Positions 846-37,444 of a stretch of DNA of 39,089 bases are shown here, in pieces. The position numbers and the translations under genes are program-made. The stretch's first letter is position 1; every line of letters begins with the position of its first letter. The notes beneath the pieces were generated by a model that had not been told where the DNA came from, searched no databases, and saw nothing but the letters and a program-made list of their open reading frames with translations. The DNA comes from a virus. The stretch spans positions 1 through 39,089 of IMG/VR virus record IMGVR_UViG_3300037247_001380, one strand, 5' to 3'.

Positions 846-1034
846 TCAGGCCCGCAGCGAGCGGTTTGTGGGCAGGCTGGTCACGTCGCCGTCGATGTGG
901 TGGACGTCCCCCAGCGTATAGCCCGGCTCACCGTACTCTTCCTCTAGCTCTTCGGGGGGCAGGTCGTCGTCGTCAATGACGACATACTCCAGCGAAGTGC
1001 CCGTCTCCTGGTAGAAGTGAACTAGCTGTGCCAT
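846..1034 (-). CDS. Small acidic protein, 62 aa
   Basis: The ATG at 1034 overlaps the TGA of the upstream zinc protein by one base (TGATG), and GAAAGGGGA lies a few bases before it. The protein starts MAQLVHFYQETG and has a strongly acidic middle (VVIDDDDLPPEELEEEYGE), then GDVHHIDGDVTSLP. Such a net negative charge is seen in phage DNA-mimic and regulator proteins, but nothing here proves that role. No family is recognised. Confidence 0.65.
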   Translation of the reverse strand: MAQLVHFYQETGTSLEYVVIDDDDLPPEELEEEYGEPGYTLGDVHHIDGDVTSLPTNRSLRA

Positions 1035-1300
1035 CACGTTCCCCTTTCGTTGAAGCTCGCCCCGGCCTGGCAGGCCGGGCATATCGAGCGGTCGTGTCGC
1101 CGCCCGTAGTCGTGAGCCTGAGCGGCCTGGTGGCGACGGTCGCGCAGGCGTCGGCTCTTCCGCACCCGCTCGCTGGCCGCCGCCCCCATCGCTTCGTTCT
1201 GCCCCCGGCGGCAGACCGGGCAGCTAATATGCCGGGGGTCTGGTGGGCGCAGCCGCTGGTATTCGACCAGATGACCGCAGCCGAACCTGACGCTGGGCAT
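1034..1300 (-). CDS. Zinc-binding protein, 88 aa
   Basis: The ATG at 1300 follows the TAG of the upstream gene with no spacer. Two Cys/His groups can be seen: CGH near residue 8 with CPVC at about 27-30, and CPAC near residue 74. The middle is very basic (SERVRKSRRLRDRRHQ). The pattern suggests two small zinc knuckles around a nucleic-acid-binding helix, by inference only. The stop is coupled to the next start through TGATG. Confidence 0.7.
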   Translation of the reverse strand: MPSVRFGCGHLVEYQRLRPPDPRHISCPVCRRGQNEAMGAAASERVRKSRRLRDRRHQAAQAHDYGRRHDRSICPACQAGASFNERGT

Positions 1301-3457: not shown

Positions 3458-3801
3458 AGCCCCAGCACGGTCTGGTGCTCTGCTGGCTTGGCCGCCACCC
3501 ACACGATGCCCTGGCGGCCAGAGCTGAGCAGTCGCCGCCGCCCGGAGTCTTCCACCAACCCCAGCAGCACCAGCTCGCGCCTCCGGGCCGTCTCAGTCTG
3601 CACCCGCATCCCCAGGGCGAGCTGCACCTGTTCGTCAGTCCGCCCTTCCCAGGCCAGGGACGCGGTGGCGTCCCTGATGAGCCGGTACACCCTGCCGCGC
3701 AGCGCCCGGCTCTGGCATTCAATGGCGACGGCGGCAGCCAGTGACGTGTCGGTGTGGACGTGTGGCGGGCCGCCACCGTAGAGGCTCCGGGGGTACTTCA
3801 A
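3454..3801 (-). CDS. Winged-helix phage protein, 115 aa
   Basis: The TTG at 3801 overlaps the upstream TGA as TTGA, which sets the start at MKYPRSLYGG. From about residue 25, the order is HTDTSLAAA, RGRVYRLIRDA, GRTDEQVQLALGM, ARRRELVLLGLVEDSGRRR and GRQGIVWVA. This order (test for DNA, recognition helix, wing ending in VW) is the common small phage winged-helix family, typically around 100 residues. It probably binds DNA as a regulator or replication accessory. The target is unknown. Confidence 0.75.
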   Translation of the reverse strand: MKYPRSLYGGGPPHVHTDTSLAAAVAIECQSRALRGRVYRLIRDATASLAWEGRTDEQVQLALGMRVQTETARRRELVLLGLVEDSGRRRLLSSGRQGIVWVAAKPAEHQTVLGL

Positions 3802-3998
3802 GCCCGCACCCCCCTGGGGAAGTACGGCACCCGGCTGGGCGGTCGCAGCGATGGGGGCCGCTCCAGCCACCGCAACCAGAGCTGACAGGGGTGACACATC
3901 CCGCCCAGATGTATCACATCATCGGTCGACCGCGTCCAGGCCAGTACCGCCGTCGTGGGGCCGTCATTAGGGCAGATCAACGGCAGGTCACGGCTCAC
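3798..3998 (-). CDS. Zinc-ribbon mini-protein, 66 aa
   Basis: The GTG at 3998 overlaps the stop of the SSB-like gene as GTGA, and its own TGA overlaps the next TTG start. CPND at 9-12 and CHPC at 35-38 form a four-ligand zinc site separated by a short beta-like stretch. The C-terminus is rich in Pro and Arg. It is one of many small zinc proteins in this genome; its partner is unknown. Confidence 0.7.
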   Translation of the reverse strand: MSRDLPLICPNDGPTTAVLAWTRSTDDVIHLGGMCHPCQLWLRWLERPPSLRPPSRVPYFPRGVRA

Positions 3999-4726
3999 TC
4001 GAACGGTATCTCTTCAGCGGGGGCTTCGGGCCCGTCGCCGCCGAACGGTATCTCTTCGGCAGGGGTCGGCGCCGCCAGGCGCTCCATGTAGGCCACCAGC
4101 TCACTCAGCACCTGGGCGTAGGCCCCCTGTTCGTCCGTGCCCTGCGCCGTCGCCACCCGCCCGATGTACTGCTGCCACTCCTGCTTCGCCTGCTGCTCAT
4201 TGAAGTTGACCCCCAGCGCCACCATCGCGTCCCGCGCCGTCCAGCGGTAGTGCGTCAGCCAGCTCCCCAGCTGCTGAGTGGGGCTATCCCCCGGACGGGC
4301 CTGCCAGGGGCCGCTGACGGGCTGCTCAGCGCGGCTGCTGGCGCTCTGGGGTGGAGTCGCCGCTGCCGGTCGCCCCGTCATCGCTGCGTCGGGTGGGGGT
4401 GGTGACGTGGTGGCAGAGCCCTGCGGCCAGGTCAGCTCGTAAGCCTGGCCGTCCTGCGACATCGTGACCCGGCAGGGCAGCCGCCGGTTCCTGTCCATAT
4501 CGGCCAGCTGTTCCTTCACCCCCACACCGTCCAGCCATGCCTTGATAGTCTCTTGCTCGCCGTCCATCTGGAGCACGCCCACGTAGGCCCAGCTCTCATC
4601 CCGGCGCTCCACCACTTCCAGCTTGTGAATGGTGAACGTGCGGTTCACCAGCAGGGCGGTCTTCACGAGGTCGCTGCCCTTGCGCCCTTCGTCGTAGCTG
4701 CTCTTCAGCCAGTCGCCGTTGCTCAC
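3995..4726 (-). CDS. SSB-like protein with duplicated acidic tail, 243 aa
   Basis: The GTG at 4726 is set by a GTGA overlap. Residues about 20-115 form a beta-rich domain (TALLVNRTFTIHKLEVVERR, SWAYVGVLQMDGEQETIKAW, RVTMSQDGQAYELTWP) compatible with an OB-like fold. A Pro/Ala/Ser linker follows, then a helical segment (LTHYRWTARDAMVALGVNF). The end reads AEEIPFGG and then AEEIPFE: two copies of the acidic-IPF tip by which bacterial SSB proteins recruit partners. Single-strand DNA binding is inferred from tail and operon context (RusA, winged helix), not from a recognised fold. Confidence 0.6.
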   Translation of the reverse strand: MSNGDWLKSSYDEGRKGSDLVKTALLVNRTFTIHKLEVVERRDESWAYVGVLQMDGEQETIKAWLDGVGVKEQLADMDRNRRLPCRVTMSQDGQAYELTWPQGSATTSPPPPDAAMTGRPAAATPPQSASSRAEQPVSGPWQARPGDSPTQQLGSWLTHYRWTARDAMVALGVNFNEQQAKQEWQQYIGRVATAQGTDEQGAYAQVLSELVAYMERLAAPTPAEEIPFGGDGPEAPAEEIPFE

Positions 4727-4929
4727 GCTCGCACCTTCTTCCGAATGGGCGGATTCGGACACGTCACCCAATGGTTCACGTAGCCGTCCGGGCTCTCTGG
4801 GTTGTCGAAGGGGGCCTTCCGCCCCCTGTTCGTCAGGCCCCACACGATAGACCTGCCGCAGCCACGGCAGAGGCCGACGCTGTGGGGCTCAACCGAAGCC
4901 GCATAGACATGCGGTTCGTACTCAGCCAT
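4723..4929 (-). CDS. Zinc-ribbon mini-protein, 68 aa
   Basis: This first gene of the DNA-metabolism operon starts at ATG 4929 with GAAAGAGGTC a few bases upstream. CRGCGRSIVW (about 21-30), KAPFDNP and HWVTCP match a small phage zinc-ribbon family with the order CxxC, Trp, Pro, His, Cys. It is likely a nucleic-acid or protein binder. The stop is coupled to the SSB-like gene through GTGA, which suggests they are made together. Confidence 0.75.
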   Translation of the reverse strand: MAEYEPHVYAASVEPHSVGLCRGCGRSIVWGLTNRGRKAPFDNPESPDGYVNHWVTCPNPPIRKKVRA

Positions 4930-5391: not shown

Positions 5392-5580
5392 CTAGTGGGC
5401 CCGTGGGTCAAGGTAGTCAGGCTGTGCGACGGGTGGTAGCGCTCTGGCCCCGTGGTGGCCGTTGTCGTGCAGCTCAGCGCCCCTGCTGCGCTTGCGACGC
5501 TCCACCGCCGGGACGAAGAGGCCGACAGTGTAGCCGGTCAGGAAGCCCACGGCGTAGGCCCAGGCGAGCAGCAGCATCAC
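5392..5580 (-). CDS. Small membrane protein, 62 aa
   Basis: The ATG at 5580 overlaps the upstream stop as ATGA. One N-terminal membrane helix (residues 2-24, MLLLAWAYAVGFLTGYTVGLF) is followed by a basic patch (ERRKRSRG) and a hydrophilic His-rich tail, so the N-terminus is probably anchored with the tail in the cytoplasm. Placed beside the holin-like gene, it could be a holin partner or antiholin. No family is recognised. Confidence 0.6.
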   Translation of the reverse strand: MMLLLAWAYAVGFLTGYTVGLFVPAVERRKRSRGAELHDNGHHGARALPPVAQPDYLDPRAH

Positions 5581-5939
5581 GCCTCGTCTTCCCCTGAGGG
5601 TGGGGCCTCCACGGCCCCGGTCAGCATCGGCAGCAGCAGCCCCTTCACGAGATTGCTGGCTTGGTCGGCGTCCACCAGGGTGTTAATCAGCGTCAGGTCA
5701 CTCTCTTCCAGCGTGACTTCAGAGCCCGCCCTGAAGATTTGCCGCCCCACTTCCATCGCGTGGATGGGATCTTGACTCAGCCCCCGCCCGATGATGTCGG
5801 TCAGCAGCTTCTTCGCCGTCACCACCGTCTGCTCCAGCGGCTGCCCGCAGGTGGGGCAGCGGTCGGTCGTCAGGGGCGACTTCACCGGGGCCCCGGTAAA
5901 GTCGCTCAGCACCGTGTCCAGGCCGGTCAGTACCTTCAT
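5577..5939 (-). CDS. Hypothetical protein with CxxC site, 120 aa
   Basis: The ATG at 5939 (MKVLTGLDTVLSD) is chosen because GAAAGGAAGGCCCAC lies directly before it. CPTCGQPLEQ at about 28-37 suggests one half of a zinc site or a redox pair. The rest is helical (VVTAKKLLTDIIGRGLSQDP, LINTLVDADQASNLVKGLLL). It lies between the tail fibre and the membrane proteins. No family is recognised. Confidence 0.6.
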   Translation of the reverse strand: MKVLTGLDTVLSDFTGAPVKSPLTTDRCPTCGQPLEQTVVTAKKLLTDIIGRGLSQDPIHAMEVGRQIFRAGSEVTLEESDLTLINTLVDADQASNLVKGLLLPMLTGAVEAPPSGEDEA

Positions 5940-17592: not shown

Positions 17593-17617
17593 CTAAAACG
17601 GTCGCACCCTTCCCGGC

Positions 17618-18254: not shown

Positions 18255-18288
18255 ATCGCGTTCCCTTCCTTCTCCGCTATTCCATCAG

Positions 18289-18335
18289 CCGCTGGGGCCT
18301 GCCCTGGGCCCACTCCGCAGAACCGGCCCCAGCGG
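18289..18335 (-). other. Stem-loop after the capsid gene
   Basis: An 11-base perfect inverted repeat (CCGCTGGGGCC at 18289-18299, GGCCCCAGCGG at 18325-18335) lies 14 bases after the capsid stop. No T run follows. It could stabilise the capsid mRNA end or lower read-through into downstream genes. Confidence 0.5.
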
Positions 18336-18348
18336 GTAGATGGCTCGT

Positions 18349-19629: not shown

Positions 19630-19644
19630 GTTCTCCCTCTTCTG

Positions 19645-20609: not shown

Positions 20610-23293
20610 AGCGCTGCCTCTCTGACGTAAACGACCCGGCCCGACAGCTCGCCGCCGGGGGCGGTCAGCGTCGTCCAGATTTCGTGCTGTATCTGCATAT
20701 TGGCCTCGAAGTTTTGCAGCGTCCCTTCCGACACCCGCTTGACGTAGGACGCCCGCAGGCTCTCTGCCTGCGACTGATAGGCTCTCCGCAGCTCAGGGAT
20801 AAGGGGCCACTCCTGGCCTTCCGCCGATCGCAGGATGTGGGTGTGCAGGTGGGTGGTGGCCCGCATCTCTATCACCCTGGTGTTGGACGCGAACAGGGCG
20901 TCCGCCAGGCTGAAGGTGACGCTCTCCAGCTCTTCAATGTGGGGGTGATTGTGCGTGAAGGAAGGCCGCTTCGCCGCCCTGACGGTGTTCACTTCGGTCT
21001 GAGTGAAGCGGACGCTGCTCTTCCCACCGCTCTTCGTCAGCACCACGTTACCGGCTTCGTCCACCACCAGGGCCCGCTCAGTGGCCCGGAAGCGAGTAGC
21101 GAGCGCTTCCTTCTGGAGCACGCTGAGCCGCTTCGCTTCGCCGCTCAGCAGCGGCTCTTCCGGTGCCGGTTCCCCGCCCGCCGGTGCCCGGCCCCGCCCG
21201 ATGATGGGGGCCAGCACCAGGGTGCCGTTGGGGTGCTCGAAGTCCACTTCGGCGTTCCCTTCCGCCAGGGTGACTTCCCGACCGTCCCGGTTAGAGCAGA
21301 CATCATCATCGCGCCCGTCTATCATCTGCACCCGGCTGATGCCCTCTGAGCGGTAGAGCGCCACGGCCCCCTTGTTGGTCGTCCACATCGCCTCAGTCCG
21401 GGCGATGGCCTGGGAGCGGTTCAGGTACGTCTCACGCACCACGCTGTCGATGCCCAGGAAGCCATCTTCCGGCACCCCACGGGCCAGCTGGAAGGCGTTG
21501 TAGCCCCGCTCTTCGGCGGTCACTACCAGGCCCCGCACCGCTTCCTTCGTCGTGTCGTACACCGCCGTGATGCGGGTGGCGGCCCCGCTTATCTCATCCA
21601 GCACGAAGGGGTTGCTGACATCGAACGCCGACCCCAGGCCCCAGGCGTCGGCGGTGGTGCTCCACCCGGACTCCACGCCGCTCAGCTGGCCCGGCTGCAT
21701 GACGCCCTGAAGATCGGTCAACTCACTGGCGGGCAGCAGCTCATCCGCGCCGGGTAGGTGGTGCTTCATCCCGCGTCCGTTGCCCCCCGCCGGGACAGCC
21801 GACGCCAGGCGGGTGATGCGGCGGCTCACCCTGGCCGCCTGAGCCGCGAAGAAGGCTTCCAGCCGGGGCCTCATCAGCCGGGCCTGCGCCTGGCGCACCA
21901 GCTCCATCTGCACCTGGTACTGCCGCGCCCCCGGACGGGCGGCCTTCAGCCCGGTCGCCGTTCCCGGCTCCTGCTCTTCCCTGACCTGGCTGGGGGTCAG
22001 CGCCGGTGTCGTCTCACCGGCGACCGCCAGCGGCACCGCCTGGGTGGTGAAGGGCCGCAGGTAGTAGTCCTCTGAGTCGTCGGTGGCCACGCCTATCATG
22101 CGCTTGAACTCGCTCACCATCAGCGCGCCCTTGCCCACCGAGTCGGTGGCCCGCTCCCACACCTTGAAGCGGTCATCCTGCAACACCCGCACGTTGGTCA
22201 GGTCGAAGCCGACCCGCTGCCGCCCTTCGTCGGCGAAGTCGGGGAGCAGCTGCACCTGTAGGTCGGCGCTCATCAGCCGCTGGGTGGGGACGATGTTGGA
22301 CTCGTAGGCCATCTCGCGCAGCTCCGCCATCGTGGCCCCCACCTTCGTCTGCTCCAGGCCACTCCCCAGACCCACCACCGCCGCTGGGATGCCCAAGACG
22401 GCGCTGACCCGCTCTTCGGGGATGCGGCGGGCGAGCTTCAGCGCCATCTGCTCCGGGGTGAAGGACATCACCTGCACGTTCATCGGCACCTTCATCACCA
22501 GCGGCTCCCCCCGTTTGTCACCGCTGAACTTCGCGCCCCATACGTCCTTCGTCTCTTCGGCGTCGGCGTCCGACAGGCCGCCACCGCCTGAGTCGTCCCC
22601 CTTCGGGGACAGCATCACCCCCGCCACCCCCATGTTGCGCAGCAGGCTGGCGCTGAAGTTGGCCGCTTCGTCGTCGGTGAATATCTCCCTGAAGAGCGAC
22701 TTCAGGGGGCTGAGCCCCTTCCGCACGTTCTTCGGGTCTAGGCCCCAGCGGAAGTGAACCACGTCAGCCGGGTCTATTTTGTCGGGCGCCCTGGAGTCGT
22801 CGGGCTTGTACTCGTAATGGCTGATGTACTCGGCGCCCGACAGGGGCCACTTCGGCGTCATCGTCCAGGCCGGGGCGTACCACAGCTGCACCACCCGGTT
22901 GTCAGGGCCCCGTAGCTTCAGCCAGTAGGCGTTGCCGTCAAGGCCGTAGTCCGAGATGGTCGCCATCCACAGCACCACGCCGCTGTAGAACGGGTTGGGC
23001 CGCTCTATCAGCTCCACCATCGGGTGGGGCGTCACTGGCTCCAGGTCGCCGCCTTCGTCCACCGGCTGCGACACCTGCACTGGCGCTTCGGGGAACGTCC
23101 GCGCCATCCAGTTGATGGGGGCCATGACGACAGAAGAGCCACGGCCATCTCCCACTTCACGGGCGTAGTTGTACTTCGTCCGGGGCAGTAGCGCGGTGCT
23201 CCAGCTGGCGGTCTGCCCGGTGAAGCGCAGGGCCTTGAAGCCCGCCCGCGCCGGGGCGGTGAGGAGCCGCAGGAAGTCGGTGGCCAGGCTCAC
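20606..23293 (-). CDS. Portal-MuF fusion with C-terminal HNHP domain, 895 aa
   Basis: The GTG at 23293 overlaps the upstream stop as GTGA. Residues 1-420 are an HK97-type portal (MAPINWMARTFPEAPVQV, DPADVVHFRWGLDPKNVRKG, ERVSAVLGIPAAVVGLGSGL), the dodecameric gate for DNA. Residues about 540-695 are a MuF-type minor head domain (ARTEAMWTTNKGAVALYRS, MIDGRDDDVCSNRDGREV). Residues about 715-895 form a further domain with DEAGNVVLTKSGGKSSVRFT, FTHNHPH (779-785) and FSLADALFASNTRVIEMRAT. The His-rich motif suggests metal binding. MuF tails of other phages often carry effector domains, but the function here is unknown. Confidence 0.9.
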   Translation of the reverse strand: MSLATDFLRLLTAPARAGFKALRFTGQTASWSTALLPRTKYNYAREVGDGRGSSVVMAPINWMARTFPEAPVQVSQPVDEGGDLEPVTPHPMVELIERPNPFYSGVVLWMATISDYGLDGNAYWLKLRGPDNRVVQLWYAPAWTMTPKWPLSGAEYISHYEYKPDDSRAPDKIDPADVVHFRWGLDPKNVRKGLSPLKSLFREIFTDDEAANFSASLLRNMGVAGVMLSPKGDDSGGGGLSDADAEETKDVWGAKFSGDKRGEPLVMKVPMNVQVMSFTPEQMALKLARRIPEERVSAVLGIPAAVVGLGSGLEQTKVGATMAELREMAYESNIVPTQRLMSADLQVQLLPDFADEGRQRVGFDLTNVRVLQDDRFKVWERATDSVGKGALMVSEFKRMIGVATDDSEDYYLRPFTTQAVPLAVAGETTPALTPSQVREEQEPGTATGLKAARPGARQYQVQMELVRQAQARLMRPRLEAFFAAQAARVSRRITRLASAVPAGGNGRGMKHHLPGADELLPASELTDLQGVMQPGQLSGVESGWSTTADAWGLGSAFDVSNPFVLDEISGAATRITAVYDTTKEAVRGLVVTAEERGYNAFQLARGVPEDGFLGIDSVVRETYLNRSQAIARTEAMWTTNKGAVALYRSEGISRVQMIDGRDDDVCSNRDGREVTLAEGNAEVDFEHPNGTLVLAPIIGRGRAPAGGEPAPEEPLLSGEAKRLSVLQKEALATRFRATERALVVDEAGNVVLTKSGGKSSVRFTQTEVNTVRAAKRPSFTHNHPHIEELESVTFSLADALFASNTRVIEMRATTHLHTHILRSAEGQEWPLIPELRRAYQSQAESLRASYVKRVSEGTLQNFEANMQIQHEIWTTLTAPGGELSGRVVYVREAAL

Positions 23294-23592
23294 TTCGCCA
23301 CCGCCGAACGAGCGGCCTGGAGCTTCTGCCGCGCCCTACCGTAGAAGCGCTCAGCCGCCAGCCAGTCGTCTTCGTTCTCCTGCCAACGGATGATGCCCTT
23401 CAGCGGCGTGTAGTCACAGTGGTTCAGGTCGTTCTGGTGCTCGGAACCGTCATAGCTGAAGGCGACCGGCCTGGGCATTATGCCGAAGCAAACGAAGCTA
23501 TCGCCTGGCGTCGGTTCCGGCCCCACCTGATAGTTGAAGACCGGCTGACACTTGGGCTCAGGACAGCACCAGGGCCGGATGTACTCGCTCAC
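23290..23592 (-). CDS. Cys-rich hypothetical protein, 100 aa
   Basis: The GTG at 23592 overlaps the upstream TGA as GTGA. An N-terminal group of Cys (WCCPEPKCQP, then FVCFGIMPRP and HCDYTPLKG) suggests a zinc site. The C-terminus is helical and basic (AAERFYGRARQKLQAARSAV). It precedes the portal gene with a four-base overlap. No family is recognised. Confidence 0.7.
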   Translation of the reverse strand: MSEYIRPWCCPEPKCQPVFNYQVGPEPTPGDSFVCFGIMPRPVAFSYDGSEHQNDLNHCDYTPLKGIIRWQENEDDWLAAERFYGRARQKLQAARSAVAK

Positions 23593-23705
23593 CACCCACC
23601 CCGCAGCCAGTCCACCACCACCATCAGGGCCGCCACCACCATGATGCCGACAGCGGCACCGAAGAGGCCGACGACCGCGCAGCCGGTGGCGGTGATGACC
23701 ATCAC
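23589..23705 (-). CDS. Tiny membrane protein, 38 aa
   Basis: The GTG at 23705 (then ATG) overlaps the XhlA-like gene's stop by four bases, and its own stop overlaps the next start. Almost the entire product is one membrane helix (VITATGCAVVGLFGAAVGIM, then VVAALMVVVDWL) ending RGGW. With the preceding coiled-coil membrane protein it may form a lysis or membrane-permeability unit. This is inferred from context only. Confidence 0.65.
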   Translation of the reverse strand: MMVITATGCAVVGLFGAAVGIMVVAALMVVVDWLRGGW

Positions 23706-25894: not shown

Positions 25895-26026
25895 TCACAG
25901 CGTCAAGAGCACCGCCCTGGGCAGCTTGTCCCTGCGGCACGGTCGGCACCGCCGCCGCCTCTTGAGCTGGCCACCGCAGACGGGGCAGAGCCGCCACACC
26001 CGCTGAGCGCAGCCGGTGTTCCTCAC
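25895..26026 (-). CDS. Zinc-ribbon mini-protein, 43 aa
   Basis: The GTG at 26026 overlaps the TGA of the gene before it (GTGA). The product begins MRNTGCAQRVWRLCPVCGGQ and continues with LKRRRRCRPCRRDKLPR, giving CPVC and CRPC separated by a basic loop: a very short zinc knuckle likely to bind nucleic acid. It is the last gene of the second cluster. Confidence 0.7.
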   Translation of the reverse strand: MRNTGCAQRVWRLCPVCGGQLKRRRRCRPCRRDKLPRAVLLTL

Positions 26027-26178
26027 GTCCCCAGATCACCTTCCACCACCGTCACCCGCATAGCCGCGATCGGCGGCCAGCCGTGATGATACCAGACCCA
26101 CAGCCGGGCGGTGGACTGCCGGATGGTCAACCCCGGACGCACAAGCCGCAGCCACTTCCTGCTGGTATCCCGCTTCAC
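26023..26178 (-). CDS. Small basic protein, 51 aa
   Basis: The GTG at 26178 overlaps the upstream stop by four bases. The product MKRDTSRKWLRLVRPGLTIR has a basic start followed by a hydrophobic aromatic stretch (STARLWVWYHHGWPPIAAM) and ends VVEGDLGT. It could attach to membrane or nucleic acid. No family is recognised. Both ends are fixed by GTGA overlaps. Confidence 0.6.
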   Translation of the reverse strand: MKRDTSRKWLRLVRPGLTIRQSTARLWVWYHHGWPPIAAMRVTVVEGDLGT

Positions 26179-26411
26179 AGCTCCCCTTCCACCAGGCAGA
26201 CGGTGGCGAAGACCGCCAGGGCGAGCATCAGCGCCAGCAGGACACAGAGCTGGGCCAGGTGCTGGGCCCGGCGGCGGGCCCAGCGGTAGACGGGCCATGC
26301 CAGCCTCTTCCCGTCAGGCGTCCACCGCGCCCCGCAGGGGCAGGCGTAACCGTAGGTCTGTTCCCCCAGCCGCCGGTCACAGTCGGGACAGGTGACATAG
26401 GTATACGTCAC
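26175..26411 (-). CDS. Zinc-ribbon membrane protein, 78 aa
   Basis: The GTG at 26411 lies three bases after the TAG of the gene upstream. CPDCDRRLGEQTYGYACPCG (8-27) is a zinc ribbon; KRLAWPVYRWARRRAQ is basic; LCVLLALMLALAVFATVCLV (about 55-74) is a membrane helix. The zinc part probably faces the cytoplasm. It is in the same cluster as the endolysin, so a role at the membrane late in infection is possible. Confidence 0.7.
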   Translation of the reverse strand: MTYTYVTCPDCDRRLGEQTYGYACPCGARWTPDGKRLAWPVYRWARRRAQHLAQLCVLLALMLALAVFATVCLVEGEL

Positions 26412-26414: not shown

Positions 26415-26909
26415 CTAGTCGGGCCCTTCCGGCTCAGCCTTCGACTCCTGCCGCCGCAGCGCCGGGAGCTGGTAGCCGCCCCGCAGCAGGGCCGTGGCCA
26501 CTTCCTCTTCCGTGATGCTGCCGCTCAGGTCGACCAGCGTGCCCTGGTCTTCGATGATGGGCAGCAGGCAGCCAGCGCAGACGTAGACGGTGTCGTGGCC
26601 TTCCCAGCCCTGGTAACGGCTGTCGGGCCGCCCCAGGGGCGTCCGCTCGTAGTTGGCGTGCCGCACCATCACCCGCAGCCCTGCGTTGAGGAACAGATGG
26701 CCGTCGCACTTCAGGCAGCCGAGCAGCGGCACCTTGTCCCCTTCGAGCACGGTGATTTCTGGGAGCGTCATCGTGGGCCTTCCTTTCAGATAGCCCGTAG
26801 CATCAACGGGCGTCGGCTTCGGCGGGCGGGGATGCTGCGGCACCGCCCCGATTCGCTTGAAGAAGGGGTACTCGAACACCCAGCCCCTGAGGGGCCAGGG
26901 CAATCTCAC
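26415..26909 (-). CDS. Zinc-binding protein, 164 aa (or 118 aa)
   Basis: The GTG at 26909 overlaps the endolysin stop as GTGA (MRLPWPLRGWVFEYPFFKR). An internal ATG at 26771 (MTLPEITVLEGDK) is preceded by GAAAGGAAGGCCCAC, the same leader as at 5939 and 31605, so a shorter form of 118 residues is possible. CLKCDGHLFL and VCAGCLLPII make a four-Cys site around GLRVMVRHANYERTPLGR. The C-terminus is helical and charged. No family is recognised. Confidence 0.65.
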   Translation of the reverse strand: MRLPWPLRGWVFEYPFFKRIGAVPQHPRPPKPTPVDATGYLKGRPTMTLPEITVLEGDKVPLLGCLKCDGHLFLNAGLRVMVRHANYERTPLGRPDSRYQGWEGHDTVYVCAGCLLPIIEDQGTLVDLSGSITEEEVATALLRGGYQLPALRRQESKAEPEGPD

Positions 26910-27775
26910 AACTTCGTCACCCGCAGCTTGCGGTCTTCTTCCTGCGCTATCTCACGCATCCGCGCTTCGCTGGTGCCACCGCCGCTATCGGCGTGGGGAT
27001 GCTGCACCATCTGGGCCCAGGCGGCCCGTTGACCCTTCTGCCCACTCTGACGGCCCAGCACCAGCTCAATGTAGGCGGGCGCGATATGGGGCATCAGCGC
27101 CACCAGGTTGTCGAATAGCGCCTGCTCATCGGTGGTAAGTAGGTCGCCCCTGCCCTTCTTACGCTGGATGGTGCGCAGCACCGAGGCTAGTTCACTGGTC
27201 GCCATATCGTCCCCTTCCTGCATCTCCGCTTTCAACTGCCGGATGAATCGTGCTTCGTCGAACTGGTCGCCGGGGTCGGTCTTGCCGAGTATCCGCCCGT
27301 TCTGGCAACGGTCGTGCCGCACGATGCCGGTGGGCACCGCCCCGCTCTGGTCGAAGACCGCAATCATCACTGGCGGGATGCCGTACCGCAGGCAGTCCAC
27401 CGCTACCTCTTTCGCCAGCCGGTCGTAGATCGCATCGCTGAACGGCTCCTGGGCCGGGCTCTGGGCCAGCTCGTAGGAGATGCCGTACCAGTCGATGGCG
27501 TAGGTGCTGTTGGGGCCCCCGAAGCCCGCGCTGTAGGTCGGCTGCTGGTTATCGTCCAGCACCGTCCCCTGGCTGCCGTCCGTCCCGATGACGTGTGAGA
27601 AGCTGGAGCCCCACCCGTCCTGCTTGTTCAGGGGTGACTGTACCCAATTGAGCGCTGACTGTTTCTGCAACGCTGGCGTGGTGTCGCCACGGACGGCGTG
27701 AATCTCAATGAAGCGGATGGGCCGGGTGCGCGGCACCCAGAGCCACCGCTGCGGCATCACGCGAACGTCCGTCAC
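26906..27775 (-). CDS. Endolysin, N-acetylmuramoyl-L-alanine amidase, 289 aa
   Basis: It cuts the bond between MurNAc and the stem peptide. The GTG at 27775 is set by a GTGA overlap. The Amidase_2/PGRP fold is seen in FIEIHAVRG (His26), FSHVIGTDGSQGTVLDD, WYGISYELAQSP, IVRHDRCQNG (His154) and GKTDPG (Asp167), giving the His-His-Asp zinc ligands. Residues 191-289 are a helical C-terminal domain (MATSELASVLRTIQRKKGRG, ALFDNLVALMPHIAPAYIEL), probably for binding or oligomer formation. A ribosome binding site lies right before its Met191, so the domain may also be made alone. Confidence 0.85.
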   Translation of the reverse strand: MTDVRVMPQRWLWVPRTRPIRFIEIHAVRGDTTPALQKQSALNWVQSPLNKQDGWGSSFSHVIGTDGSQGTVLDDNQQPTYSAGFGGPNSTYAIDWYGISYELAQSPAQEPFSDAIYDRLAKEVAVDCLRYGIPPVMIAVFDQSGAVPTGIVRHDRCQNGRILGKTDPGDQFDEARFIRQLKAEMQEGDDMATSELASVLRTIQRKKGRGDLLTTDEQALFDNLVALMPHIAPAYIELVLGRQSGQKGQRAAWAQMVQHPHADSGGGTSEARMREIAQEEDRKLRVTKL

Positions 27776-28050
27776 GTCGTTGCTCCCATCATCGCAGCCC
27801 GGACTCGGTGGACGTGCCGCACCGACATCCCCACCAGGTCGGCGACCTGGCGGGGCCCGACGCCCCGCGCCCTGAGCTGCATTATCCGGCTGTTCCGTTC
27901 CCGGTTCAGGATGCCCCGCAGGCCACCGGGGTCGTCGAAGCGGCACGTCACCAGGGGGCAAGTGAGGCAGGTGGGGCTGACCTCGCAGCCGGTATCGCGG
28001 TACTCCACGTTCTCAGGCAGCGCGTCAGAGCGCACGCGGGCCAGGGTCAC
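27772..28050 (-). CDS. Helix-turn-helix protein with Cys cluster, 92 aa
   Basis: The GTG at 28050 overlaps the upstream stop by four bases. After a short start come CEVSPTCLTCPLVTC (four Cys at about 21-35) and RFDDPGGLRGILNRERNSRI, then a helix-turn-helix, ARGVGPRQVADLVGMSVRHV. This Cys-group-plus-HTH order is shared by small regulators in phages and plasmids. The Cys may bind zinc or an iron-sulfur cluster. It could control the adjacent lysis and methylase genes. Confidence 0.7.
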   Translation of the reverse strand: MTLARVRSDALPENVEYRDTGCEVSPTCLTCPLVTCRFDDPGGLRGILNRERNSRIMQLRARGVGPRQVADLVGMSVRHVHRVRAAMMGATT

Positions 28051-28229
28051 AGCAGCTTCTCCCCGCAGCGGTGCTGGCGGTACTCTTCCCGGCTCAGCCC
28101 GACGTGACAGCCGGGGCAGGTCAGCACCTGCGGCTGCCACCGGCGGCGTCCCGTTATCGTCAGCCCCTGCTCCACGACGGCGTACCGCACCAGGGGGCCG
28201 TCTGTCGGCGCCAGGCCCAGGCCGTTCAC
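28047..28229 (-). CDS. Zinc-finger mini-protein, 60 aa
   Basis: The GTG at 28229 overlaps the methyltransferase stop as GTGA. The C-terminal half contains CPGCHVGLSREEYRQHRC, a C2HC-type finger (CxxC, His, Cys). The first half (APTDGPLVRYAVVEQGLTIT) is probably a beta strand pair. It lies between the DNA methyltransferase and the helix-turn-helix gene and may act with either. Confidence 0.7.
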   Translation of the reverse strand: MNGLGLAPTDGPLVRYAVVEQGLTITGRRRWQPQVLTCPGCHVGLSREEYRQHRCGEKLL

Positions 28230-29783: not shown

Positions 29784-29890
29784 CGCTTCACCTTCCGGGG
29801 ACGGCGCCTGAGCGCCAGGCCCAGCACCCAGGGAGCCAGCGGGCCCAGCGGGGGCCCGTCGAAGACCAGCCAGAGCAGGAAACGTCTCAG
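29780..29890 (-). CDS. Tiny membrane protein with CTG start, 36 aa
   Basis: No ATG, GTG or TTG is available, but CTG at 29890-29888 overlaps the upstream TGA as CTGA, the same geometry as its neighbours, with GGTGGAAA just before. The product RRFLLWLVFDGPPLGPLAPW then VLGLALRRRPRKVKR is one membrane segment between basic ends. Its stop overlaps the next start as TTGA. Coding is inferred from the two fitting overlaps and the membrane-protein composition. Confidence 0.5.
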   Translation of the reverse strand: MRRFLLWLVFDGPPLGPLAPWVLGLALRRRPRKVKR

Positions 29891-30003
29891 AACTTTCCAC
29901 CCGCCTCTGCGCGGCAGTAGTAGCAGCGTCCCTTCCTGATGTCCATACGCTGGGGGCTTCCACTCTCACCACATCGGGGGCACCTAACGTCGAACGTCAC
30001 CAC
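29887..30003 (-). CDS. Zinc-ribbon mini-protein, 38 aa
   Basis: It starts at GTG 30003 (or the adjacent GTG 30000). The product contains FDVRCPRCGESGSPQRMDIR followed by KGRCYYCRAEAGGKF: CPRC and CYYC, 17 residues apart, a complete minimal zinc ribbon. A TTGACA promoter-like sequence ends only a few bases before it. It is probably nucleic-acid or protein binding. Confidence 0.7.
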   Translation of the reverse strand: MVTFDVRCPRCGESGSPQRMDIRKGRCYYCRAEAGGKF

Positions 30004-30819: not shown

Positions 30820-31109
30820 CGGGGCGGCGTCCAGACATCCCCCTGAGACCCGGCCCTGGGGTCGGGCTCCACCCCTTCGACCATCAACCGCACCGGCTGA
30901 AGCTCCCCGCCGAACGTCAGGATGGTCAGCTGCACACGGGCCCCAGCCGCCACCGCCTTCCGCTCCGCGTGCGTCAGCTCCCACTCGGTATGCACGCCCC
31001 CATCCGCTGTCACCCGCGCCGGGAGCGGGTGATACTGCGGCTGGTGCTCCGCGAAGACGACCGCCTTGCCCTCTCGCGCTTCCTCCGACCGGGGTATCAC
31101 GGGTTGCAT
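30816..31109 (-). CDS. Hypothetical protein, 97 aa
   Basis: The ATG at 31109 shares one base with the upstream stop (TGATG), which rejects a longer in-frame reading. The product MQPVIPRSEEAREGKAVVFA is followed by WELTHAERKAVAAGARVQLT and ILTFGGELQPVRLMVEGVEP. It may be a small alpha-beta fold. No family is recognised. Confidence 0.65.
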   Translation of the reverse strand: MQPVIPRSEEAREGKAVVFAEHQPQYHPLPARVTADGGVHTEWELTHAERKAVAAGARVQLTILTFGGELQPVRLMVEGVEPDPRAGSQGDVWTPPR

Positions 31110-31273
31110 CAGTCCGACCCCCATTTCTTGTATTCGACACAGGAGCGGCATCGTCCACACTGGCCAGTTCGCAGAAGGCGTTCCCGCCCCATGCTGTCCT
31201 TCTGTCGCATCCGCAGGCGGTGATCGCGGCGGATGTGACCGCACTCGCACTTGTCGTCGGGTGTTGCAGCCAT
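31109..31273 (-). CDS. Zinc-finger mini-protein, 54 aa
   Basis: The ATG at 31273 and the stop at 31109 both overlap neighbours as TGATG. DKCECGHIRRDHRLR (7-21) and QCGRCRSCVEYKKW (38-51) supply Cys and His for one or two zinc sites. The CxCGHxxxxH order is common in small phage zinc proteins. It probably binds nucleic acid or a host protein. Confidence 0.7.
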   Translation of the reverse strand: MAATPDDKCECGHIRRDHRLRMRQKDSMGRERLLRTGQCGRCRSCVEYKKWGSD

Positions 31274-31605
31274 CAGTCCGGCAGCTTCCTGGGCGTCCAG
31301 GCCGCCATCGCGTCGGCGAACGCCATCAGGTGGTCGAACGCGGCTTGACCTTCCGGCTCACCCAGCCCAATGCCGAACGCCCCCTCGGCAGCCGCGTCTT
31401 CCGCGTAGTTGCGGACGATGGGCGGGGCGAGCACGTCCTGGCCCCGAAGGACGAAGATAGGTTCGCCCTTCGGGAAGCCGAGCGTGTCCAGCTGCGAGAG
31501 CGCCATCGCCGCTTCGTTCGATGACAGGGCTAGCTGCTCCAGCACCTTCCGCGCCGGGGCCACGGCCCGCTCCGGGTAGATGCGAATATACTTGCCGTCG
31601 TTCAC
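31273..31605 (-). CDS. Conserved-looking phage protein, 110 aa
   Basis: The GTG at 31605 overlaps the upstream TGA as GTGA and has GAAAGGAAGGCCCAC before it. The product (MNDGKYIRIYPERAVAPARK) has the central block GEPIFVLRGQDVLAPPIVRN YAE and a C-terminal helix HLMAFADAMAAW. The block FVLRgQDxLAPxxVRxYA recurs in proteins of unknown function in many phages of GC-rich hosts. No activity can be assigned. Confidence 0.7.
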   Translation of the reverse strand: MNDGKYIRIYPERAVAPARKVLEQLALSSNEAAMALSQLDTLGFPKGEPIFVLRGQDVLAPPIVRNYAEDAAAEGAFGIGLGEPEGQAAFDHLMAFADAMAAWTPRKLPD

Positions 31606-32000
31606 TGTGGGCCTTCCTTTCCTGCCGTCGCTAGGACGCTCCCTTGCGGTGCTCGCGGGAAGCGCTCTTCGATGACGGTCACTACGGGTTCTGCATGATG
31701 GTAGCACTTCCAGGCACCGACGCGCCGCACCATAGTGGCGACACAGAAGACATCGGGACAACGGGGCGCTCGCTCACTACTCGCCAGGAAGGCGGGGGAT
31801 TCGGCCAGCAGGTGACCGTAGCCCCGGCTCATCACCCAGCCTGACCAGACCGTGGTGATGCCGTACACCCCAATGTAGGAACGATCGACAGGAGCGTGGG
31901 CCTCATCCGCGATGCACCAGGAGTACCAGCAGTCACCGCATAGGCCATCGCGGTCAGGAGCAGCGGGCCAGCTACACCGGCAGCGGCAGGTGCAGCTCAC
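31602..32000 (-). CDS. Cys-rich zinc-binding protein, 132 aa
   Basis: The GTG at 32000 overlaps the upstream stop by four bases. The N-terminus SCTCRCRCSWPAAPDRDGLC then GDCWYSWC gives up to seven Cys in 28 residues, enough for two zinc sites. The middle is hydrophobic and aromatic (DRSYIGVYGITTVWSGWVMS), followed by CPDVFCVATM and KCYHHAEPVVTVIEERF. No family is recognised. It is directly coupled to the neighbouring genes. Confidence 0.7.
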   Translation of the reverse strand: MSCTCRCRCSWPAAPDRDGLCGDCWYSWCIADEAHAPVDRSYIGVYGITTVWSGWVMSRGYGHLLAESPAFLASSERAPRCPDVFCVATMVRRVGAWKCYHHAEPVVTVIEERFPRAPQGSVLATAGKEGPQ

Positions 32001-32593
32001 TTGTCACCTTCGCCGAACATCTCCAGCGCTCGCTTATAGCTCTCGGCATCGTCCACCGGGATGGTCAACCCCTGCTGCCGGGCGTCCACCGGGCCGGTGA
32101 AGACGTTGACGCCCTGGCCCCGCCCGGCCAGCTTGCCCCGCAGCTCGAAGTAGGTGCGTATCGCGTCGTCCGAGATGGCGGTGCGCCGCACCAGGTTCTG
32201 CCACACCTGGGTGTCGTAGCTGCCGCTGCCCAGAGAGACGTCCACGATGGTGGCGACCAGGTCGACGACGCGGGGGTGTTGCCGCCACCGCCTGGCGGTG
32301 CGGTCGGGCACCCGGTTGGCCAGACACCAGCCGACCAGCGAACGCTCAGCTTGCGGCCTGTCCCACGTCGGGGTGGCCATCCACTCCGCAAGGGCGAGCT
32401 GCCGCAGGTCAAGCCCCGGCCACTTCCGGCCCGTCGTGTTCTCCAGCAGCCGCAGCAGCCGCAGCAGCCGGTCGGCCACCCGGACTTCGTCGGCCAGCGC
32501 CTGCGCCGCGTCAGGCCCGTTCTGGTAGAGCGCCACGGCCCGCTGGCTGTTCTGGTGGGGCGTCGGCTTCGCCTTCGCCTTCCGCTTCGTCAC
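31997..32593 (-). CDS. Possible terminase small subunit / HTH protein, 198 aa
   Basis: The ATG at 32593 overlaps the upstream TGA by four bases. After a basic start (TKRKAKAKPTPHQNSQRAVA), a region near 80-112 reads PQAERSLVGWCLANRVPDRT ARRWRQHP, a helix-turn-helix like those of small terminase proteins. Helices DTQVWQNLVRRTAISDDAIR and a C-terminal tail follow, as in terminases that recognise the pac or cos site. It lies about 6 kb from the large subunit gene, so the call is tentative. Confidence 0.5.
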   Translation of the reverse strand: MTKRKAKAKPTPHQNSQRAVALYQNGPDAAQALADEVRVADRLLRLLRLLENTTGRKWPGLDLRQLALAEWMATPTWDRPQAERSLVGWCLANRVPDRTARRWRQHPRVVDLVATIVDVSLGSGSYDTQVWQNLVRRTAISDDAIRTYFELRGKLAGRGQGVNVFTGPVDARQQGLTIPVDDAESYKRALEMFGEGDK

Positions 32594-32805
32594 GCCCTTG
32601 CCTTCTCCTCATCAGGGCCATCCGCATCGGGACGGGCATAGCGGAACACATGGGTCTGGTTTACCCGCACGTCATGGTCGTAACGGTCATGGTGCTGGGC
32701 CCCCAGGCCGTGGGCGTTCTTCGTCTCTGCCGTCCAGTCACAGTCGGCACAGTAGGCGCTGACATCTATGAGCGCATGACGCCTGATGCGGCCCCGGCAC
32801 GTCAT
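32590..32805 (-). CDS. C2H2-like zinc-finger mini-protein, 71 aa
   Basis: The ATG at 32805 overlaps the upstream stop as ATGA. The core YCADCDWTAETKNAHGLGAQ HHDRYDH has CxxC followed about 17 residues later by two His in HxxxxxH spacing, a family of phage fingers with CxxCxW and a distal His pair. The basic N-terminus (RGRIRRH) supports nucleic-acid binding. The stop is coupled to the next gene through ATGA. Confidence 0.7.
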   Translation of the reverse strand: MTCRGRIRRHALIDVSAYCADCDWTAETKNAHGLGAQHHDRYDHDVRVNQTHVFRYARPDADGPDEEKARA

Positions 32806-32963
32806 CGGCGGTCATCCGTCCAGCCGCAGACCCCACAGGGCGGCTTCTCCAGGGTGGCGCCGCAGTCCGGGCAGTTGAAGCGGCGGGGCAGCCGGTAGCA
32901 CCAGTCGAAGTATCGCTTCCACCACTTCAGGCCAGCTCTGGCATCATCCATCAGCTTCGTCAT
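32802..32963 (-). CDS. Zinc-ribbon mini-protein, 53 aa, paralogue of next gene
   Basis: The ATG at 32963 shares its A with the upstream TGA (TGATG). The N-terminal half is a basic aromatic helix (LKWWKRYFDWCYRLPRRF), the C-terminal half a ribbon: CPDCGATLEKPPCGVCGW. The ribbon is closely similar to that of the gene at 32963-33127 (CPDC, then CPVCGW), so the two are tandem relatives. Confidence 0.7.
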   Translation of the reverse strand: MTKLMDDARAGLKWWKRYFDWCYRLPRRFNCPDCGATLEKPPCGVCGWTDDRR

Positions 32964-33127
32964 CAGCAGCTGGCCCCAGGGTATCGTTGCCAGCCACATA
33001 CGGGGCACTTCTCCCACGTCACGGGCAGGCTTGTGCCACAGTCTGGGCAGGCGAAGGTGCGGGGCATCGGCAGATGGAGCTGATTCACCGGCTCTGGCCT
33101 GAGCCAGTCCGGGTTGTGCAGGCTCAC
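32963..33127 (-). CDS. Zinc-ribbon mini-protein, 54 aa
   Basis: The GTG at 33127 overlaps the upstream stop as GTGA. After MSLHNPDWLRPEPVNQLHLP comes PRTFACPDCGTSLP and EKCPVCGWQRYPGAS. The CPDCG...CPVCGW ribbon resembles those of ribosomal or RNA-polymerase-type zinc ribbons. It is probably a binding module for a host or phage complex. Confidence 0.7.
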   Translation of the reverse strand: MSLHNPDWLRPEPVNQLHLPMPRTFACPDCGTSLPVTWEKCPVCGWQRYPGASC

Positions 33128-33333
33128 GGTCGCAGCCGCCCCGCCAGGTGAGCGTCGGCCAGCAGCCTTGCCGGTGCGGGCCCGGTGACGATCACCGTGT
33201 TGCTACAGCGGTAGCAGGTGGTCTTCTTCACCAGCTGGGCACCCTCTACCCGGTGCTCCACCACCTGCCGGGTGGGACGACCACACCGCCGGTTGTGGCA
33301 GAACAGCTGGGTGGTGGTCGTCCAGTAGCGCAT
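33124..33333 (-). CDS. Zinc-ribbon mini-protein, 69 aa
   Basis: The likely start is ATG 33333 (MRYWTTTTQLFCHNRRCGRP). CHNRRCG and CYRCSNTVIV form a CxxxxC/CxxC site around a basic loop, TRQVVEHRVEGAQLVKKTT. A longer frame upstream runs through the intrinsic terminator and is not credible. The Shine-Dalgarno sequence is weak. This is the first gene after the terminator. The stop is coupled to the next gene by GTGA. Confidence 0.65.
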   Translation of the reverse strand: MRYWTTTTQLFCHNRRCGRPTRQVVEHRVEGAQLVKKTTCYRCSNTVIVTGPAPARLLADAHLAGRLRP

Positions 33334-33540
33334 CGTCGGTTTCAGCGGACGGGGGGCGGCGTTGCGGGTTCGTGACCGTAGTGGGGGGTCGACTGGCTGC
33401 CGCCAGGCCGCCATTCCCCACGCTTGTCCACCCCGGAAGCGCCAGGTCGCTAGGGGCCGTTCGCTTCCGTCAGGGCTCTGAAGCCTGTTACCCCGACCAC
33501 CGCCCGCCCGTCGCCTGACAGCGTACACCGCCGCCGGGCA
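33334..33540. other. Intergenic region after the early terminator
   Basis: About 200 bases lie between the intrinsic terminator and the next gene. No convincing -35/-10 pair, repeat or small gene was found. A promoter for the second gene cluster would be expected here, or the cluster is reached by read-through. Confidence 0.5.
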
Positions 33541-33568
33541 AAAAGAAAGCCCCCGGCTGACGGGGGCA
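33541..33568 (-). terminator. Intrinsic terminator of the early operon
   Basis: On the minus strand GCCCCCG-TCAGC-CGGGGGC forms a seven-pair GC stem, followed directly by TTTCTTTTT. It lies 32 bases after the stop of the last early gene (33600) and fits a classic Rho-independent terminator. Confidence 0.88.
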
Positions 33569-33599
33569 ACCACCAGGCCGGGGGCGTAGCAGGGGGATG

Positions 33600-33839
33600 T
33601 CAAGCGGGAACGGCGACGGCGTCCTGCCGGGCCGCAGCGCGGCGCATCGTCACCACCGGGACGTAGTCAGCTGCCGCGTCGATGAAGGGCTGGAGACACT
33701 TCAGGCACCAGAGAGAGAAGCCGCCGGTACTGTAGGCGGGTCTGCCGCAGAGGCAGCAGCGGCTGTGGGCCGCCAGGTAGGCCATCGTGTGCTGCTTCAG
33801 GGGGCCCGCGCAGAGCGTGACCAGCGGGGGATAGGTCAC
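33600..33839 (-). CDS. Zinc-ribbon mini-protein, 79 aa
   Basis: The GTG at 33839 overlaps the upstream TGA as GTGA and has AAAGGCGGC before it. Cys residues appear at LCAGPLKQH, RCCLCGRPAY and WCLKCLQPFI, giving a ribbon of two CxxC knuckles (about 28-48). The C-terminus is basic. It is the last gene before the intrinsic terminator. Confidence 0.7.
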   Translation of the reverse strand: MTYPPLVTLCAGPLKQHTMAYLAAHSRCCLCGRPAYSTGGFSLWCLKCLQPFIDAAADYVPVVTMRRAAARQDAVAVPA

Positions 33840-34054
33840 GTCGCCGCCGCCTTTCGCCGTTTGTAGGCCCGTTGGTTCGCCACGTTCTTGCACGCCACGG
33901 TGCAGTACAGGGCGGTGGGGCTGCGGCCCGGTGGCCAGTCGCTGAACGGCAGGTGACAGATGGGGCAGGCGGGGTGGGCCCAGGCACCCCCACAGGTCGG
34001 GCAGGCCAGCGTCATCATCTCGGCTGCTGTCTTCCTTCCGCCGTTCGTTCCCAT
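33836..34054 (-). CDS. Zinc-finger mini-protein, 72 aa (or 60 aa)
   Basis: ATG 34054 or ATG 34018 may start the protein; AAGGAAG lies about 13 bases before the second. LACPTCGGAWAHPACPICHL (17-36) and ALYCTVACKNVANQRAYKRR K show six Cys: two CxxC pairs, then YCxxxC with a basic helix. The last part resembles the CxxxCRxxANxRAxRRR zinc finger of small phage DNA-binding proteins. Confidence 0.7.
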   Translation of the reverse strand: MGTNGGRKTAAEMMTLACPTCGGAWAHPACPICHLPFSDWPPGRSPTALYCTVACKNVANQRAYKRRKAAAT

Positions 34055-34624: not shown

Positions 34625-34927
34625 TCAGCTCCTGGGGGCCCTGGCCTGCTTCGCCCCCTTCCCCTTCCGCGCCTGGGCGGCCTTCGCCTTCCGTTCGCCC
34701 CGGTCAACGGCCAGCTGCATCATCGCCTTGCTGAGCGCGTCGATGTCCACCAGGACGCCGCGCCGGTGGCCCCGGATGTTCTTCCCGATGCCCATGTAGG
34801 GCACCCCCAGGGCCGACAGCTTGGCCGTCACCTTGCGCTGATTCTCCAGGGTGTGCTGCGGCGGGTCACCTTCGGTCTGGAAGCCCATCGCGTCTAGCAG
34901 GTCGGACAGGCCCACCACTCCCTGCAT
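34625..34927 (-). CDS. Hypothetical basic protein, 100 aa
   Basis: The ATG at 34927 has GAAAGGAAGG upstream, and the first 62 bases overlap the end of the previous gene. The product (MQGVVGLSDLLDAMGFQTEG) shows a small helical domain with GIGKNIRGHRRGVLVDIDAL, then a Lys/Ala/Arg tail (GERKAKAAQARKGKGAKQAR). A DNA-binding role is likely from charge. No family is recognised. Confidence 0.65.
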   Translation of the reverse strand: MQGVVGLSDLLDAMGFQTEGDPPQHTLENQRKVTAKLSALGVPYMGIGKNIRGHRRGVLVDIDALSKAMMQLAVDRGERKAKAAQARKGKGAKQARAPRS

Positions 34928-35594
34928 CGCTACCTTCCTTTCTCTCGTGGCTGGTGGTGCCGCGTGCGTGGTCGGGGTCGTCCGCAGGCACCGGGATGAT
35001 CGTGACCCCTTTGGCCTTCAGGTCTTGCACCCACTCCTCTTCGAGCCGGTCGTCTTCCACCAGGCACTCCACCCGCTGGGGCACGAAGGCGTGGAAGAGG
35101 CCGGGGCCGTCGAAGAGATGGCCGTCTTCATGACTGCACTCTGACTCGCCCCGTGGGCCGCCGCAGCGGTAGCAGCTGTCACAGGTGTAGCCCTTCGGGT
35201 GAGCCAGGAACACCCAGGTGCGGCCCAGCTCCAGGCCCGCCGGGATGCCCGGCACCCGCTTGCTGACGCCCATCTCTTCCACTTCCAGGGTGAAGCTCTG
35301 CGGGGTGTAGTCCCGCTCCCCCACCCAGCTGACGCCCACCGGCGTGGTGGGGTCGATGCGGGGCGGCCACCGCAACGGGCAGGTGAAGCGGGCGCCGGTG
35401 CAGTCGTCCCGGCGGCAGGGGATGTGGTCAGTGCCCGCCAGCACTTCTATCAGGGGGTGGAGCTGAAACTGCCTTGACTGCTCCAGGCTGGTGGGCAGGG
35501 GCAACCTGCCGCACCATCGGCTCACGCCATCGCTGACCAGGTACAGGGCCCCGCAGACGCGGAAGCCGCACCCCCTGGCCTTCTCAATCGCCAT
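34866..35594 (-). CDS. Cys-rich hypothetical protein, 242 aa
   Basis: The ATG at 35594 overlaps the previous gene by 11 bases. Three Cys groups can be seen: GCGFRVCGALY near 8-18; PCRRDDCTGARFTCP near 59-73; and TCDSCYRCGGPRGESECSHE near 136-155, which probably bind zinc. Between them lies RWPPRIDPTTPVGVSWVGER. The C-terminal part (PGLFHAFVPQRVECLVEDDR, LKAKGVTIIPVPADDPD) looks alpha-beta and is globular. No family is recognised with confidence. The last 20 residues overlap the next gene and may be unimportant. Confidence 0.65.
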   Translation of the reverse strand: MAIEKARGCGFRVCGALYLVSDGVSRWCGRLPLPTSLEQSRQFQLHPLIEVLAGTDHIPCRRDDCTGARFTCPLRWPPRIDPTTPVGVSWVGERDYTPQSFTLEVEEMGVSKRVPGIPAGLELGRTWVFLAHPKGYTCDSCYRCGGPRGESECSHEDGHLFDGPGLFHAFVPQRVECLVEDDRLEEEWVQDLKAKGVTIIPVPADDPDHARGTTSHERKEGSDAGSGGPVRPARRDGLPDRR

Positions 35595-37084: not shown

Positions 37085-37444
37085 CTAGCCGAACAGCGGC
37101 GGGTCGCCGTCCAGCGTCATACCGTTCCCGGCTCCCGCTAGGCTCTTCTGCTCCAGGCTGGCCCGCTGCCACGCTATGGCGAAGCGATTGCATCCTGGGC
37201 ACTTGTCAGGCACCATCCGGGTGATGCCGTGCTCCGGGCACGGCACCGCCTGGTCAGGTATCGACACGTCGGGCCGCCCCTGAGCTTCAAGCCGGGCCGC
37301 GTCAGCCCGCCAGTGTCGCTCATCAGACGCCAGCTGCGGTATCGAGCGCCGCCAGCGCCGTAGGGCCTGCTCGGCATCGTTGCACGCCACGGCCAGCTTC
37401 CGCGTGTCAGGCGGCAGCTGGCGCAGCGTCTTCTTCTGGAACAT
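37085..37444 (-). CDS. Zinc-ribbon protein, 119 aa
   Basis: The ATG at 37444 (MFQKKTLRQLPPDTRKLAVA) has GAAAGGGGGAAGCC before it, which excludes a longer form. The first half is basic and helical (CNDAEQALRRWRRSIPQLAS). CPEHGITRMVPDKCPGCNRF (about 71-90) is a zinc ribbon with CPxH and CPGC. The gene follows the first 103-nt intercistronic element. No family is recognised. Confidence 0.7.
   Translation of the reverse strand: MFQKKTLRQLPPDTRKLAVACNDAEQALRRWRRSIPQLASDERHWRADAARLEAQGRPDVSIPDQAVPCPEHGITRMVPDKCPGCNRFAIAWQRASLEQKSLAGAGNGMTLDGDPPLFG

Follow-up and report, generated by a model that had tools for sequence, protein, structure and literature searches.

The 39,089-nucleotide virus record IMGVR_UViG_3300037247_001380 (positions 1 to 39,089; here called the window, meaning the whole stretch of DNA analysed) carries a set of mostly small reading frames whose products are marked by cysteine pairs of the CxxC type, eight of them crowded between positions 31,109 and 34,054. 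Twenty such frames had been named in an earlier note on this DNA, each by its stop-side coordinate, which serves here as the gene name; all 20 exist, and all lie on the minus strand. Their translations were graded by eye for cysteine and histidine residues able to hold a metal ion. Of the "about twenty" zinc proteins that the note had counted, eight are firm and ten plausible, while two do not stand up to inspection.

The eight firm cases contain two CxxC pairs each, and four of them belong to the array. Genes 32802 (32802..32999, 65 residues, CPDC...CGVC) and 32963 (32963..33127, 54 residues, CPDC...CPVC, zinc-ribbon-like) lie in tandem, their frames (32802-33127, minus strand) overlapping by 37 bases in different phases. 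Genes 33600 (33600..33839, 79 residues) and 33836 (33836..34054, 72 residues, CxxC...CxxC...YCxxxC followed by a basic helix) overlap by four bases. The remaining four are 1034 (1034..1300, 88 residues), 25895 (25895..26026, 43 residues), 26415 (26415..26771, 118 residues) and 29887 (29887..30003, 38 residues, with weak coding support).

Ten further frames combine one pair with additional cysteines or histidines that could complete a set of four ligands. Within the array these are 31109 (31109..31273, 54 residues, CxCxH...CxxCxxC), 31602 (31602..32000, 132 residues with ten cysteines and no sequence match in the PDB), 32590 (32590..32805, 71 residues, CxxC followed by HH and H) and 33124 (33124..33333, CxxxxC...CxxC). 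Several lengths in the set hinge on the choice of start codon, as in 33124, which encodes 69 residues from ATG and 159 from TTG. Elsewhere in the window lie 4723 (4723..4929, 68 residues, CxxC...HxxxC), 26175 (26175..26411, 78 residues, CxxC...CxC and then a hydrophobic stretch that by eye may be a membrane helix), 28047 (28047..28229, 60 residues, CxxC with a histidine and a cysteine close to the end), 37085 (37085..37444, 119 residues, CPxH...CxxC) and 23290 (23290..23595, 101 residues, five cysteines), which lies upstream of the portal gene and whose pair is CxxxxC rather than CxxC. The tenth, 34866 (34866..35594), has a plausible site among its 11 cysteines, and at 242 residues it is no mini-protein.

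Two candidates were set aside. The product of 5577 (5577..5939, 120 residues) has two cysteines in all and is unlikely to be a zinc protein on its own. Gene 3798 (3798..3998, 66 residues, three cysteines) is doubtful both as a metal site and as a gene, its frame sharing 100 bases with 3454-3897, a frame that matches a PHROG and is supported by its codons.

Evidence that these frames are genes comes from their arrangement. Links were defined as stop/start overlaps of four bases (ATGA or GTGA) between two frames of at least 35 codons, and 50 of them occur on the gene strand against 22 on the opposite strand. Fifteen of the 20 listed frames are joined to their neighbours by one or two such links, which argues that most are real genes, and most of the 20 also fill gaps between other gene-strand genes. 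Third-position GC content ranges from 0.69 to 0.91 in 21 frames (the 20 and the neighbouring gene 27772, described below), compared with 0.89 in the structural genes. Taken together, most of the listed frames are probably genuine genes, 3798 and 29887 being the least certain.

The set was compared with chance expectation under a strict and a loose definition, using 20 Markov shuffles and both strands. Under the strict definition, two CxxC pairs within one frame of 30-260 residues, eight frames were observed, every one of them on the gene strand, whereas the shuffles averaged 1.4 over both strands. Under the loose "CxxC-type" definition, 24 frames were observed and 31.3 expected, so that loose CxxC motifs are uninformative at such a base composition. 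Comparison with other viruses relied on a home-made codon filter, trained separately on each record with cysteine set neutral, which also discards real-looking genes. After filtering, the window retains seven double-CxxC genes (29887 is lost), or 1.79 per 10 kb, the highest density among 38 records; the other 37 range from 0 to 1.11 per 10 kb with a median of 0.28. The pooled rate predicts 1.58 filtered genes for the window against the seven found (Poisson tail 0.0012). Without the filter, the window ranks second of 27 (itself and its distant relatives), below one relative, G003, at 2.34 per 10 kb, and its density exceeds those of ten isolated phages (0-1.29 per 10 kb) and of the halovirus HF1 (1.40).

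The 37 comparison records are a non-random sample: 26 of 29 distant relatives, chosen by length (G006, G013 and G027 are outside the sample), ten isolated phages that had appeared in previous hit lists, and the halovirus HF1. Several entered the comparison in truncated form, namely HF1 (50,000 of 75,898 bases), Murp (50,000 of 51,496) and relatives G002, G020, G025 and G029 (cut at 40,000), and frames may be lost at the joints of records read piecewise. Because the comparison set is non-random and the window was picked for exactly this trait, the double-CxxC enrichment is graded as real but moderate. The claim of a number well beyond that of ordinary tailed phages holds against the bacteriophages compared, but for the HF1 group of haloviruses 21-23 CxxC genes appear in the excerpted text of PMC7230728, in genomes roughly double the length of this one. 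As a separate observation, the locus L186 of relative G002 holds seven unfiltered double-CxxC frames on one strand at about 6.5-13.2 kb, two of which pass the codon filter. This stretch is a possible second cluster, with unrelated proteins.

How the proteins relate to one another was tested on the 190 pairs formed by 20 proteins (the list without 5577 and with 27772), using 5000 shuffles. Only 32802 and 32963 beat all 5000 shuffles, identifying them as tandem paralogues; a second low-probability pair, 25895 and 32963, reflects a ten-residue match around one knuckle. The spacing of the ligands likewise varies from protein to protein. A common origin of the whole set was therefore rejected, with one clear pair of 190, and the same result suggests that the mini-folds are independent rather than parts of one machine. 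The proposal that they form parts of a larger complex finds no support in this paralogue count or in the scattering of the genes throughout the non-structural region, and the set, as judged by sequence comparison, is not one system.

Known families account for few of these proteins. In a PHROG search of 19 of the 20, 16 had no match better than an expectation value (E) of 0.01, while 32963 and 33836 had matches below 0.01 and not below 0.001. The only match below 0.001 was that of 4723 to phrog_5984 (E 5.9e-8, residues 17-50). The TraR/DksA zinc-finger family, which we take to be represented by the Pfam profile zf-dskA_traR, is absent from the Pfam rows of 19 proteins (all but 29887). None of the nine mini-proteins scanned against NCBIfam scored above a family cut-off, and a scan of the window with Rfam gave nothing at the gathering threshold.

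Gene 4723 is informative about its own site. A search of the phage collection with it returned weak rows only (best E 0.04), which led to an alignment of the protein with five related sequences, drawn from phages of Geobacillus, Corynebacterium and Gordonia and from two uncultured viruses. C21, C24, H53 and C57 are invariant in all six sequences, within an overall invariant series of C, C, G, P, D, H and C. This alignment is the best evidence in this work for selection on one of these sites. Phrog_5984, a widespread phage family with no assigned function, shares both the profile and the C, C, H, C ligands with 4723, a likeness that concerns one of the 20 proteins; members of this type are present in three of the 29 distant relatives.

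Other searches for relatives gave little. The phage collection, HF1 included, contains no close relative of the window by DNA, no relative of the terminase and none of 33836, 32590 or 31109. Among the viral contigs, none encodes a relative of the portal protein, and none was found for 31997 or 26415. Searches with the terminase and the capsid protein yielded distant relatives only, sharing 39-53% of sequence, and when the window proteins were compared with these by tblastn, 4723 alone within the zinc set had a counterpart. In a tblastn search of five loci, 37085 gave a weak match of 62 residues in L002 (E 0.001). Within the presumed host phylum, two of 251 genomes contain a match to 33836; these matches are weak and interrupted by stops.

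Structures were predicted for two proteins, 32963 and 33836. The model of 32963 contains a beta hairpin, with a predicted local distance difference test score (pLDDT) of 81-86 over residues 21-50. Foldseek ranked short zinc fingers, together with the zinc-binding portions of larger proteins, highest among its matches; they superpose at about 0.9-3 Å over 25-32 columns, and none is significant (no E below 0.001) for so small a protein. The model thus superposes, with weak scores, on zinc ribbon, NZF and RanBP2-type fingers, and its sequence matches to solved zinc fingers are generic knuckles. On these grounds the model of 32963 leans towards zinc-site geometry.

The record has an exact direct terminal repeat of 127 bases (positions 1-127 equal 38963-39089), and the genome is therefore apparently complete; it looks like a complete or circular tailed-phage genome of about 39 kb. 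Its GC content is about 67%, and nearly all codon-supported frames lie on the minus strand. Functions outside the mini-protein set were assigned by family searches (PHROG and Pfam), which identified a portal (20606-23293), an HK97-type major capsid protein (18349-19629), a tape measure protein (10936-13590), an amidase endolysin (26906-27775), a C5 cytosine methyltransferase (28226-29161) and a RusA-like resolvase (2603-3184). A DNA topoisomerase-family protein (37574-38446, minus strand, phrog_6247) and a methyltransferase-like protein (35874-36524, minus strand, phrog_15480) are encoded in the non-structural part. The head-and-tail block, from 5939 to 23290, is free of listed cysteine frames. 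The frame 24329-25582 (minus strand) has relatives in many viral contigs but itself matches nothing in PHROG or Pfam; it is the putative terminase, assigned from its position and the look of its sequence. This frame stays in phase for about 40 codons upstream of the first ATG, GTG or TTG, and those codons resemble the N-terminus of terminase relatives, which may point to an unusual start codon or an error in the sequence.

A gene outside the list, 27772 (27772..28050, minus strand, 92 residues), encodes a four-cysteine cluster followed by a helix-turn-helix, with a Pfam HTH_23 match at the family cut-off. Chromosomal relatives of this gene occur in 27 of 301 genomes in the phylum of an Anaerolineales metagenome-assembled genome (MAG), a phylum which we take to be Chloroflexota, compared with none of 249 in the phylum to which a Thiotrichales MAG belongs and two weak matches among 149 in that of an Acidobacteria MAG. 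The four cysteines are invariant in the 27772 product and six aligned relatives, taken from the 27 genomes with a match; against the phage collection, the protein gave two weak rows covering the helix-turn-helix part. At locus L255, a relative of 27772 lies just upstream of a frame resembling the DNA polymerase III delta-prime subunit. Relatives of the capsid protein, searched for in the Anaerolineales MAG's phylum, were found in three of 251 genomes at E below 1e-50, with three weaker ones. Since relatives of both 27772 and the capsid protein occur in this phylum, the host is likely a member of Chloroflexota, and 27772 is a possible host marker. Relatives of the terminase also occur in contigs of MAGs from several other phyla. 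Around the three capsid relatives, unfiltered counts gave none, two and three double-CxxC frames in 30, 40 and 20 kb, respectively, two of the contigs being partly covered. These elements are not rich in such frames, and the idea that the trait is general to phages of the presumed host phylum is thus not supported by them.

The closest known parallel is found in archaeal viruses. According to the excerpted text of PMC7230728, two genomes of the HF1 group of haloviruses (Serpecor1, Hardycor2, HF1) carry 23 and 21 CxxC genes, most of whose products are shorter than 100 residues and mostly of unknown function, and none of which are encoded in the region for virion assembly; the annotation of the HF1 genome (75,898 bases) likewise shows CxxC genes next to one another. 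The window resembles this group, as far as that text describes it, in its many small CxxC proteins and in their absence from the structural block. The HF1-group viruses are archaeal myoviruses of about 76 kb, whereas the window is a 39-kb phage of bacterial type with an HK97-type capsid and a probable Chloroflexota host. The likeness is one of pattern, not homology, and since the haloviruses already show this zoning, the pattern itself is known in archaeal viruses. A second point of reference is TraR, a small C4 zinc-finger protein that, with phage homologues such as lambda Orf73, reprograms host transcription, as set out in the excerpted text of PMC9239242. Such TraR/DksA-like regulators of RNA polymerase are small and carry a CxxC...CxxC site, and they offer a model for a possible mode of action. 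A literature search on phage zinc-ribbon sets found nothing beyond these halovirus (PMC7230728) and TraR (PMC9239242) papers.

These data have led us to propose, with a probability of roughly 0.6, that most of the frames are genuine accessory genes of an uncultured tailed phage, coupled in translation and encoding independent metal-stabilised mini-proteins. Very short proteins have little room for a hydrophobic core, for which a metal site can stand in at low cost. Each mini-protein would be held in shape by one small Cys/His site, presumably for zinc, and the genes may form a fast-turnover set in which such a site is the cheapest route to stability for a fold of some 40-120 residues. Every product would most likely bind its own protein or nucleic-acid partner, regulating the phage or interfering with the host, and some may act on host transcription in the manner of TraR and lambda Orf73. 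What was observed is the frames themselves, their enrichment and coupling, one paralogue pair, one member of a known phage family and a structural block free of them; that they bind zinc, when they are expressed, what they target and what they do is inferred. The little or no conservation of the set in distant relatives is consistent with this proposal. Several results weigh against it: third-position GC is low (0.69-0.72) in 29887 (0.69), 31109, 31602 and 32590; for 32963, VIA-align yields a Z no higher than 2.9; the model of 33836 is poor (pLDDT 63, with a helix at 46-70) and has no fold match in the PDB; and ligand conservation is traceable for 4723 alone among the 20.

The earlier note had suggested that the proteins inhibit or adapt host machinery, and by analogy with TraR a host-directed role is plausible. 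In its stronger form, this idea makes most of the genes a dedicated battery of counter-defence or host-takeover proteins directed against transcription, translation or defence. The genes are indeed small, non-structural, poorly conserved and operon-like, and, in the excerpted text of PMC9239242, TraR and lambda Orf73 give a precedent for the reprogramming of host transcription by a small C4 zinc protein. Yet no known inhibitor family was matched at usable E-values in Pfam or PHROGs (19 of the 20 proteins) or NCBIfam (nine of the 20), PADLOC lying outside the search, and no member is tied to a target, so that we regard this explanation as rather unlikely.

The proposal of real accessory genes must also be weighed against chance. 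In DNA of 67% GC, a sizeable share of the list could be fortuitous frames, leaving the double-CxxC subset and 4723 as the only real metal proteins. The loose motif count at or below shuffle level, the failure of 5577 and 3798 on inspection, the weak third-position GC of four frames and the 22 four-base links of the non-gene strand all speak for such a dilution, but the coupling of 15 of the 20 frames and the gaps that most of them fill make it decidedly improbable. Very improbable indeed is an origin of the array by expansion of one ancestral ribbon, or as subunits of one complex: the operon-like genes and the tandem paralogues 32802 and 32963 would fit it, but ligand spacings are unlike among the proteins, and no other of the 190 pairs stands out save the short knuckle match of 25895 with 32963.

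At present, the window counts as one more case, moderately enriched, of a pattern already described. It is a doubtful, speculative extension that a phage probably infecting Chloroflexota built its host-interaction arsenal largely from independent metal-knuckle mini-folds, which would amount to at least a dozen new families in 39 kb, several of which would be directed against transcription, translation or defence in the host. If the proposal of metal-stabilised accessory proteins is true, the richness in CxxC mini-proteins known from haloarchaeal viruses would extend to a bacterial phage, and if most of the frames yield folded metal-binding proteins, the window would be a compact source of new minimal folds and perhaps of factors that act on hosts from a bacterial group about which little is known.

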